Shown piece after piece: positions 6,529 to 10,547 of a stretch of DNA of 64,000 bases. The first letter of the stretch is position 1. Each line of letters starts with the position of its first letter. The notes under the pieces were generated by a model. It worked only from the letters and a program-made list of their open reading frames with translations. It did not search any database and was not told the DNA's origin. Source of the DNA: Desulfomicrobium orale DSM 12838. GTDB lineage: Bacteria > Desulfobacterota > Desulfovibrionia > Desulfovibrionales > Desulfomicrobiaceae. The stretch spans positions 2,046,001 to 2,110,000 of the forward strand of contig NZ_CP014230.1 of assembly GCF_001553625.1 (NCBI RefSeq), read 5' to 3'. Both the position numbers and the translations under genes were made by a program.

Positions 6529-6634
6529 AGCCCGCCCCGGTTTCACATCCGGCGGACCGGGGATGTCCGCTTGGGAAAAAATGCTTCAACGCCACGGGAT
6601 GATCCGGCTCGGGCCATCCTGCTCAAGGTCATCT

Positions 6635-8926
6635 ATGCTGCATGAGAATATTCTCTCTCTGGTGGGGGCCGCGCCCATCGTGCGTCTGAACCGGATTTTT
6701 CCGCATCCGCGCATCATTCTGGCGGCCAAGGTCGAAGGGGCCAGCGTGGGCGGATCCATCAAGGACCGTGTGGCCCTGTCCATGGTCGAGGCGGCCGAGG
6801 CCAGCGGAGAACTGACCCCGGACAAAATTATCATCGAAGCCACCAGCGGCAACACCGGCGTGGGGCTGGCCATGGTCTGCGCGGTGAAGGGCTACCGGCT
6901 GACCCTGCTCATGCCCGATTCCGCCTCGGAGGAACGCAAGCGGATCATGCGCGCTTACGGGGCGGAGCTGCGCCTGACGCCGGGATGCCTGGGCACGGAC
7001 GGGGCCATCGAGGAAGCCTACCGCTTGGCCAGAGAGGAGCCGGACAAGTACCTGCTCATGGACCAGTACAACAATCCGGCCAGCATCAGGGCGCATTTTA
7101 TGGGCACGGGCCGGGAGATTCTGGAGCAGACGGGCGGAGCGGTCACGCATGTGGTGGCCACGCTGGGCACTTCGGGCACGGCCATGGGCATCGCCCGGCG
7201 GATGAAGGAATCCGCTCCGGGAGTGTGCGTGGCGGCGGTGGAGCCCTTTGCCGGGCACAAGATTCAGGGCCTCAAGAACATGCAGGAGTCCTACCCGCCC
7301 GGCATCTACGACAAGCATGCTCTGGACCGGATCATTCACGTGGAGGACGAGGAGGCTTTTTCCTGCGCCCGGCGTCTGGCCAGGGAAGAGGGCATCCTGT
7401 CGGGCATGAGCGCGGGAGCGGCTCTGGCCGGAGCGCTGCGTCTGGCCCGGGAACTGGACGCCGGGGGAGAATCCGGGTTCATCGTGTTCATCTGCCCGGA
7501 CACCGGGGAGCGCTATCTGTCCACCACGCTGTTTGCGCCGCCCGCCCGGCAGGGACTGGCCGTGCACAGCGTGGATACGGGAACTGTGGAGTTTCTCGGC
7601 TCGCCGTCCGGCGGACACGCCCTGTTCACGCCGGGCCCCAGTCTGGACGACATCGGAGAGCTGGATGTCTGGCGGCGCATCGTCCTCATGGACGTGCTGG
7701 GCCGGGCCCTGTCCGGGGAGGGTCGGGCCGCGCGGATGGCTGTCGGTGTGGCGGACATGGACGACCGCGCTCTGGCCGGAGCGCGAGACGCCGGTCTGCC
7801 CCCGGACCAGTTCCGGGAGCGGGGAGTGGAGACAATGGCCGGATACGCGCGGAGCCTGGGAGTATCTTCGGCGCTGCGTTTCGCCCTGTCCGGAGACAGT
7901 CTGGACCGTGCCCTGGAACTGACGCGGCGGCTTTTGTCGCGGGGCCGGGCCTACGAAAAGCTGCGTTCCGTCTATTTCGACGTGACCAGGGACAAAGACT
8001 ACGGCCGGACTTCCGGCATGGACACGGCGGGTGTGCATGTCGGGCACACGGTGGATCTGGATGATTACGTCAAGGAAAATCCGGCGGATTTCACGCTGCT
8101 GAAGCGGGCCAGCCTGCAGGACCTGAAGCTGGGGGACGTGATCGAAACCCAGTGGGGCAAGGTCCGGCCCAGCTGGTTTCTCCAGATGGCCTCCGCCGCC
8201 CTGGACAGTCTGGGCGCGGTATCGGTCATGCTGGCCGGAGAATCCCAACGCTTCCCGCATCTGGACAACTTCAGCGCCATCTGGAGCGCGGGAGCCGATA
8301 TCCGGCCAAGGGCCTGGATGGTGATTCAGCCCGTGATCCGGCGCGAGGGCGGAGTCACTTCGCTGGAACAGGCGCTGGAACTGGCCGGGAACGGGACGGC
8401 CGTACGTCTGTGGCTGCTGTCGTCGTCGCATCTCAAGTCTCTGGCCTGCACCGGGGAGAGTCTGGTCATGTGGCGCAGAAACCAGCACCGGCTCCAGGAT
8501 GCCTTTGTGACGGCCACCCTCGGAGACGGACCGGGAAAGGCGGATCCGTCCTTCAATCAGACCCTGTACGACGTGAAGACGGCCTTTGCGGCGGCTCTCG
8601 AAAACAATCTGGATCTGGCCCATTTCTGGCCGGTGCTGTTCGGTTTTGCCAAGATCCTCAACGGCCGTCCGCCGACCCGTGAGGAAGGCGAGGCCGCCCG
8701 CGAACAGTTTCTGGCCTGCGACAGCGTGCTGGGCTTTCTGGACGGCGCCCGGCTGCCGTTACCCAAACAGGAATGGCCCGAAGAAGCGGCAGGTCTGGTG
8801 GCGCGGCGGGAGTGGGCCCGCGAACAGGGGAATTTTGCCCTGGCCGATGAACTGCGCGGGGAGCTGGTCCGAATGGGGCTGCGTCTGGAAGATCACCGGG
8901 CGGGCGCGCGGCTGTACAGGGAGTGA
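6635..8926 (+). CDS. cysteine synthase fused to a degenerate cysteinyl-tRNA synthetase
   Basis: A 763-aa two-part protein. Residues 1 to about 308 are a complete PLP-dependent O-acetylserine sulfhydrylase. They contain the PLP lysine K43 in GGSIKDR, the substrate loop TSGNTG and the phosphate loop GTSGT. Residues from about 310 to the end align over their whole length with cysteinyl-tRNA synthetase, down to the C-terminal helix (ADELRGELVRMGLRLED). The synthetase signatures are gone: HIGH is DIGE (339-342), the zinc cysteine of YVCG is Pro333, WHIEC is WFLQM (514-518), FPHHENE is FPHLDNF and KMSKS is absent near 569-577. ATG 6635 has AAGG seven bases upstream. The first half should make cysteine from O-acetylserine and sulfide. 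The second half probably cannot charge tRNA and may bind cysteine or regulate. Confidence 0.92.
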   Translation: MLHENILSLVGAAPIVRLNRIFPHPRIILAAKVEGASVGGSIKDRVALSMVEAAEASGELTPDKIIIEATSGNTGVGLAMVCAVKGYRLTLLMPDSASEERKRIMRAYGAELRLTPGCLGTDGAIEEAYRLAREEPDKYLLMDQYNNPASIRAHFMGTGREILEQTGGAVTHVVATLGTSGTAMGIARRMKESAPGVCVAAVEPFAGHKIQGLKNMQESYPPGIYDKHALDRIIHVEDEEAFSCARRLAREEGILSGMSAGAALAGALRLARELDAGGESGFIVFICPDTGERYLSTTLFAPPARQGLAVHSVDTGTVEFLGSPSGGHALFTPGPSLDDIGELDVWRRIVLMDVLGRALSGEGRAARMAVGVADMDDRALAGARDAGLPPDQFRERGVETMAGYARSLGVSSALRFALSGDSLDRALELTRRLLSRGRAYEKLRSVYFDVTRDKDYGRTSGMDTAGVHVGHTVDLDDYVKENPADFTLLKRASLQDLKLGDVIETQWGKVRPSWFLQMASAALDSLGAVSVMLAGESQRFPHLDNFSAIWSAGADIRPRAWMVIQPVIRREGGVTSLEQALELAGNGTAVRLWLLSSSHLKSLACTGESLVMWRRNQHRLQDAFVTATLGDGPGKADPSFNQTLYDVKTAFAAALENNLDLAHFWPVLFGFAKILNGRPPTREEGEAAREQFLACDSVLGFLDGARLPLPKQEWPEEAAGLVARREWAREQGNFALADELRGELVRMGLRLEDHRAGARLYRE

Positions 8927-9119: not shown

Positions 9120-10547
<1,428 letters not shown>

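Follow-up and report, generated by a model that had tools for sequence, protein, structure and literature searches.

The 64,000-nucleotide stretch of the Desulfomicrobium orale DSM 12838 genome analysed here (the window; contig NZ_CP014230.1, positions 2,046,001 to 2,110,000) contains a single open frame on the forward strand at 6635-8926 (ATG at 6635, stop at 8926) encoding 763 residues. The frame joins an intact cysteine synthase (residues 1-301; 6635..7537) to a full-length cysteinyl-tRNA synthetase (CysRS) fold that appears catalytically retired (residues 307-763; 7553..8923). This arrangement was described in the original prediction, and Pfam and structural matches agreed with it. PALP matched residues 8-284 (E 6.6e-63), tRNA-synt_1e matched residues 331-556 (E 3.2e-21), and the NCBIfam cysS profile TIGR00435 matched the CysRS half (E 1.3e-32). 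Full-length homologues across the phylum and the dN/dS values of both halves show that the frame is not a product of chance. A 664-aa open frame on the reverse strand (6629-8623) is antisense to almost the entire fusion gene; it is most likely a side effect of the GC-rich codon usage rather than a gene. The neighbours of the fusion in the window are a glycosyltransferase 9 gene and, downstream, gatB, which encodes tRNA amidotransferase subunit B (9120-10547, forward strand). When 109 neighbourhoods were clustered, no recurring sulfur-metabolism gene was found among the clusters read. The neighbours changed by lineage, and operon context was rejected as a functional clue.

The structure of the fusion was predicted by AlphaFold2 using 75 fusion sequences as input (pLDDT 91.0, pTM 0.76). 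CysM of Mycobacterium tuberculosis matched the N half best (3dki; Z 44.4 over 303 residues, rmsd 1.6), and E. coli CysRS from its complex with tRNA-Cys matched the C half (1u0b_B; Z 41.3 over 435 residues, rmsd 5.6). Model residues 307-763 aligned on chain residues 1-461 of 1u0b_B, confirming the earlier claim that the CysRS fold, including its C-terminal part, is kept. Modelling the C half alone gave results that agreed with the full-length model (1u0b Z 41.4, 8qhp Z 41.5).

The synthase half has the expected motifs, namely the PLP Schiff-base lysine K43 (6761..6763), which aligns with K51 of M. tuberculosis CysM and is invariant in the fusions, the TSGNTG substrate-binding loop (residues 70-75; 6842..6859) and the GTSGT PLP-phosphate loop (residues 178-182; 7166..7180). 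The prediction of an intact synthase was therefore correct. With respect to the substrate, K214 (7274..7276) occupies the position of M. tuberculosis CysM R220 (numbering checked against 3dwg) and is Lys in every fusion, and this column is missing from the window genome's own CysK. The K214 loop is short; it is missing from most standalone CysKs of fusion-less genomes, and a similar loop was found in three of them (L228, L229 and L231). CysK of T. kodakarensis, which belongs to an O-phosphoserine route, is reported to have Lys where A. pernix has a phosphate-reading Arg (PMC5120207). Because the OAS-type CysM (OASS-B) has an arginine, R210, near the place of K214 (PMC3805590), K214 by itself does not identify the substrate and is suggestive only. 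The cysKM profile scored 343.3 bits on the protein against a cut-off of 344.15, and 346.5 bits on the genome. Taken with the genomes described below in which the fusion is the only cysteine synthase found and cysE is missing, these features make an O-phosphoserine (OPS) sulfhydrylase the probable identity of the synthase half. This assignment is weaker for the window genome itself, in which a standalone cysK is followed by a cysE-like gene and phosphoglycerate dehydrogenase has only a weak match (220 bits against a cut-off of 454). Serine synthesis in Desulfovibrio vulgaris has been reported as unresolved (PMC7311316). Two cysE-like genes were found in the window genome (G000:C1:405525-406019 and 1660130-1660612); both scored below the family cut-off, and only the second adjoins cysK.

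In the CysRS half, for which residue correspondences are given in E. coli CysRS numbering, the residues required for charging were largely gone. Alignment to CysRS showed that three of the four zinc ligands were replaced, C28 by P333 (7631..7633), C209 by M518 (8186..8188) and E238 by F546 (8270..8272), so that the set C28/C209/H234/E238 reads P/M/H/F and H542 (8258..8260), corresponding to H234, is the sole ligand retained. Loss of the zinc ligand region had been predicted, as had the change of FPHHENE to FPHLDNF and the loss of KMSKS, and the alignment upheld all three; the site of the KMSKS loop deletion lies at residues 569-573 (8339..8353). The prediction that HIGH was lost was also correct, but the homologous columns are E342-L343-D344-V345 (7658..7669) and not the DIGE at 339-342, which lies three residues off. 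The KIIK of CysRS corresponds to R378-A-L-A, and the TIGR00435 score of the protein was 113.5 bits, below the cut-off of 340. By these alignments, the window protein appears to have no residue set left that argues for CysRS activity. The original prediction called for a search for a separate intact cysS, and one was found in the window genome (G000:C1:2351356-2352804; 543 bits, with HIGH and KMSKS present), indicating that the C half is not this genome's CysRS.

The extent of this loss varied among the fusions. All 68 Desulfovibrionales fusions had lost C28, C209, both His residues of HIGH and the KMSKS lysine pair, and the zinc site was also lost in other lineages. The full zinc set was present in 40 of 154 fusions, all of them outside the Desulfovibrionales, and several of these also had HLGx and KMSRS. 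Thirteen relatives were near-complete, with the four zinc ligands, the first His of HIGH and K-x-x-[KR]. Some of these 13 might retain activity, since two genomes rely on a CysRS that carries HIGN and KMAKS (L235 and L236); for the same reason, a protein that lacks just the second His need not be inactive. Only L165, of the fusions examined, had both HIGH histidines (HLGH) along with K-x-x-K (KPSKS); its E238 is Ala. Regardless of mechanism, the family forms a natural gradient of synthetase decay, some members having nearly complete active sites and others none, in which the anticodon reader stays constant.

The anticodon-binding domain (residues 716-763; 8780..8923) aligned to the C-terminus of 1u0b and matched CysS_C at residues 713-754, with a score (E 0.0015, 19 bits) below the 23-bit cut-off. 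According to PMC12684709, which cites Hauenstein 2004, G34 of tRNA-Cys is hydrogen-bonded by R427 and D436 of E. coli CysRS and stacked by W432, and R423 takes part in the hydration network. The corresponding residues of the window protein are R729 (8819..8821; kept in 153/154 fusions), D738 (8846..8848; 154/154), F734 (8834..8836; aromatic in 154/154) and R725 (8807..8809; 154/154). The complete set was thus present in 153 of 154 fusions, the exception being R427Q in L093, a Desulfovibrionales member that is the sole synthase of its genome. D451 and R439 were as well kept as this set. Among the columns invariant in canonical CysRS, the window protein kept 7 of 8 in the anticodon domain versus 32 of 88 in the catalytic domain. 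A similar difference was observed when columns were counted that at least 90% of the Desulfovibrionales fusions keep (6/8 versus 26/88, Fisher p 0.015). This pattern of conservation suggests that the tRNA reader is retained while the chemistry is lost, although the anticodon residues might instead serve folding or contacts to the synthase half. The densest fusion-conserved run of the C half lies elsewhere, in a block at residues 439-514 (7949..8176; AYEKLRSVYFD...TVDLDDY.K..P.DFTLLKR...RPSW) that holds fusion-specific residues, including EK at 441-442, TVDLD and R491. Residues 465-480 of this block are conserved yet have low confidence or poor order in the model.

At a threshold of E <= 1e-110, which was reached by no intact standalone cysteine synthase among the matches listed, the fusion was found in 155 of 395 sampled Desulfobacterota genomes. 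Its presence in Desulfovibrio relatives, given in the original prediction, was confirmed, and well over 100 genomes of the order carry it, but that range was too narrow. The fusion spans the phylum Desulfobacterota, mostly sulfate-reducing bacteria, and records with it include Desulfomicrobium, Solidesulfovibrio, Pseudodesulfovibrio, Desulfonatronospira, Desulfonema magnum and Desulfacinum infernum. The best 80 of at least 556 loci were all titled Desulfobacterota, Deltaproteobacteria or unresolved Proteobacteria, a result that has no bearing on other phyla. A tree built from 48 fusion C halves and 31 canonical CysRSs placed the two groups on opposite sides of one fully supported branch, which is consistent with a single origin. 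Both halves are under purifying selection, which is looser on the C half (dN/dS among close relatives 0.07-0.23, compared with 0.02-0.07 for the N half). The earlier proposal that selection maintains the CysRS half for a role other than charging was supported. The nearest relative (L021, genome G039) shares 98% identity over residues 1-527, and its fusion is interrupted between residues ~529 and 633, with two separate matches on the same contig; the cause is either a frameshift or an assembly error.

We looked for cysS, cysK/cysM and cysE in 41 genomes with the fusion, almost every one from a different family. Absence was called by profile searches at E 1e-50 (cysK) and 1e-30 (cysE), and many of the genomes are metagenome bins. 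A CysRS-type gene besides the fusion was present in 40 of the 41. In 37, the window genome included, this was a canonical CysRS scoring >500 bits with TIGR00435, and two (G349 and G403) had the HIGN/KMAKS type. The only non-fusion CysRS found in G378, a 95% complete bin, is apparently L237 (G378:C145), which is CysRS*-like, with HLGH/KMSKS kept and no anticodon-binding domain. In the forty-first genome, the 79% complete bin G251, no CysRS-type gene besides the fusion was found. Two further CysRS-related sequences were observed: L234 (G266:C1:592000-597500), a HLGN/KMAKS CysRS in one frame of 742 aa with glycosyltransferase-like sequence, and L238 (G603:C1:2099000-2103500), a third, divergent paralogue with HVGN, KMSKS and a C-terminal part cut short.

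In 14 of the 41 genomes, the fusion was the only cysteine synthase found, and these were exactly the genomes in which serine acetyltransferase (cysE) was not found. No detected CysE thus supplies O-acetylserine where the fusion works alone. This state arose or was lost in at least 11 changes on the fusion tree. A full-length phosphoglycerate dehydrogenase was present in 13 of the 14. Among 27 fusion-less genomes, 25 had cysE; in the fusion-less G256 and G258, no cysE was detected and cysteine synthases were still present. An RNA-dependent cysteine route was rejected, as no SepRS was found in the 14 cysE-less genomes or in the window genome and the weak matches were far below the cut-off. In-frame stops at G450 and G211 were considered as possible recoding and rejected; they are ordinary gene ends, one of them that of a cysK followed by a cysE-like gene. 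Several points extend beyond the original prediction: the zinc set and a conservative KMSRS are kept in many relatives, and the fusion is a probable OPS enzyme that is often the sole cysteine synthase.

The reading that we favour, while putting it somewhat below an even chance, is that the retired CysRS is a built-in regulatory domain that binds tRNA-Cys and tunes cysteine synthesis, much as HisZ acts on HisG. The N half would make cysteine from activated serine and sulfide. The C half, unable to activate cysteine, would dock tRNA-Cys through its anticodon, and this binding, probably with charged and uncharged tRNA told apart, would alter the activity of the synthase half. Cysteine output would thus keep step with its use in translation. 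The parts of this proposal differ in strength. Binding of tRNA-Cys by the C half is, given the residues kept, about as probable as its opposite; tRNA-dependent regulation of the synthase is plausible but falls a little short of that; and discrimination of charged from uncharged tRNA and its coupling to the synthase half are inferred. Of the roles offered in the original prediction, tRNA-Cys binding and regulation of the synthase fit best, since no other functional set is as well kept as the anticodon-reading residues. The cysE-like genes, the cysK and the weak phosphoglycerate dehydrogenase match of the window genome speak against the proposal, as does R427Q in the sole synthase L093, and the gene neighbours lend it no support.

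Several other explanations were weighed against this one. The old cysteine pocket might bind cysteine or a serine-derived substrate and exert feedback in place of CysE control, with no role for tRNA. HisZ offers a precedent that works in this way (PMC9437257), another feedback point would be useful in the 14 genomes without cysE, and C28, C209, H234 and E238 are intact in the 40 fusions noted above. The zinc site is, however, lost in every one of the 68 Desulfovibrionales fusions and in other lineages, and the kept anticodon set would be left unexplained. Retention of the zinc pocket as compensation for missing cysE was also rejected, since the presence of the zinc set was unlinked to the absence of cysE (Fisher p 0.52, with almost no informative tree pairs). 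We regard such a sensor as unlikely overall; cysteine sensing, also among the roles first offered, is unlikely for the window protein in particular because its pocket is gone, as in all Desulfovibrionales examined. A scaffold, in which the C half holds tRNA-Cys or the canonical CysRS beside the synthase for cysteine handover or serves assembly only, would account for the full fold, the purifying selection, the retained tRNA-reading residues and the densely conserved 439-514 block. We also doubt this explanation, since it has no known partner or conserved neighbour and channelling would not demand loss of the active site.

The C half could also be a passive remnant, a former working CysRS that lost its job and was kept since the synthase now needs it to fold. 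The decay of catalytic sets in several lineages is in line with this, as is a C-half dN/dS that is ~2-4 times that of the N half, but ~450 residues have been kept throughout the phylum, the anticodon domain has invariant polar residues and related synthases fold without a C half, making a remnant rather improbable. It is highly improbable that the C half still charges tRNA-Cys via another motif set. The 13 near-complete relatives, and the two genomes that depend on a different CysRS with HIGN and KMAKS, give this possibility some ground; against it, the window protein has no HIGH, KMSKS, C28, C209 or E238, and a separate canonical or HIGN-type CysRS accompanies the fusion in almost all genomes surveyed. 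Finally, the C half might make cysteine persulfide by the PLP-dependent side activity of CysRS (CPERS), which was reported to be independent of C28/C209 (PMC10655014). The same study reported a requirement for the lysines of KIIK and KMSK, which correspond to R378-A-L-A and a deletion here, and we give this idea hardly any weight.

Our searches of the open-access literature turned up no account of the fusion, and a 2022 review of synthetase duplicates gives only CysRS* and MshC for CysRS (PMC9437257). New here are the phylum range, the separation of the fusion's CysRS half from canonical CysRS, the sole-synthase genomes without cysE, the probable OPS sulfhydrylase assignment and the kept anticodon set. 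More broadly, we tentatively propose a phylum-wide class of cysteine synthase that would gauge cysteine demand by the docking of tRNA-Cys on a fused, retired CysRS, a statement we hold with less assurance than either regulation or binding taken singly. If true, this would be a tRNA-controlled biosynthetic enzyme with control exerted on the enzyme itself and not on transcription or translation, and in many species it would be the sole cysteine synthase. Through the fused former synthetase, the state of a single tRNA would govern how fast its amino acid is synthesised, a direct link at the protein level between translation and biosynthesis. The model would also identify the main, or the only, route to cysteine in many sulfate reducers and related bacteria.

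The fusion resembles known systems in part. E. coli CysRS (1LI5, 1U0B) shares the whole fold with the C half, including the anticodon domain and the G34-reading residues, but the fusion lacks HIGH, KMSKS, C28, C209 and E238 and is joined to a cysteine synthase. With HIGH, KMSKS and three of the four zinc ligands gone and the score below the cysS cut-off, the protein is by these features not a functional CysRS. On the N side, M. tuberculosis CysM (Rv1336), an O-phosphoserine sulfhydrylase, has the same short loop and a basic residue at R220; that residue is Arg in CysM and Lys in the fusion, and CysM has no CysRS domain. MshC, the mycothiol cysteine ligase, is likewise a CysRS paralogue with the same fold (3c8z, Z 39.9) and a non-translational role. 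MshC reportedly uses ATP to activate cysteine and works independently of tRNA (PMC2922099), whereas the fusion has lost the activation residues and retains the anticodon domain; identity with MshC was ruled out by a score of 33 bits against a curated cut-off of 485 and by the missing HIGH and KMSKS. CysRS* of Desulfobacterales is a CysRS paralogue from the same phylum that keeps catalysis and has no anticodon domain (PMC9437257), the reverse of the fusion, and the tested features ruled out identity with CysRS* as well as with CPERS. A parallel in function may be HisZ, a HisRS paralogue without adenylation activity that regulates HisG (PMC9437257). In both cases, a relative of an aminoacyl-tRNA synthetase, dead by sequence in the fusion, is tied to the enzyme that makes the cognate amino acid. 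HisZ, however, is a class II, separate subunit that mediates inhibition by histidine, whereas the fusion has a covalently attached class I CysRS fold that keeps the tRNA-reading domain and has lost the amino-acid pocket. By this analogy, the fusion may work like HisZ, but it is not HisZ.
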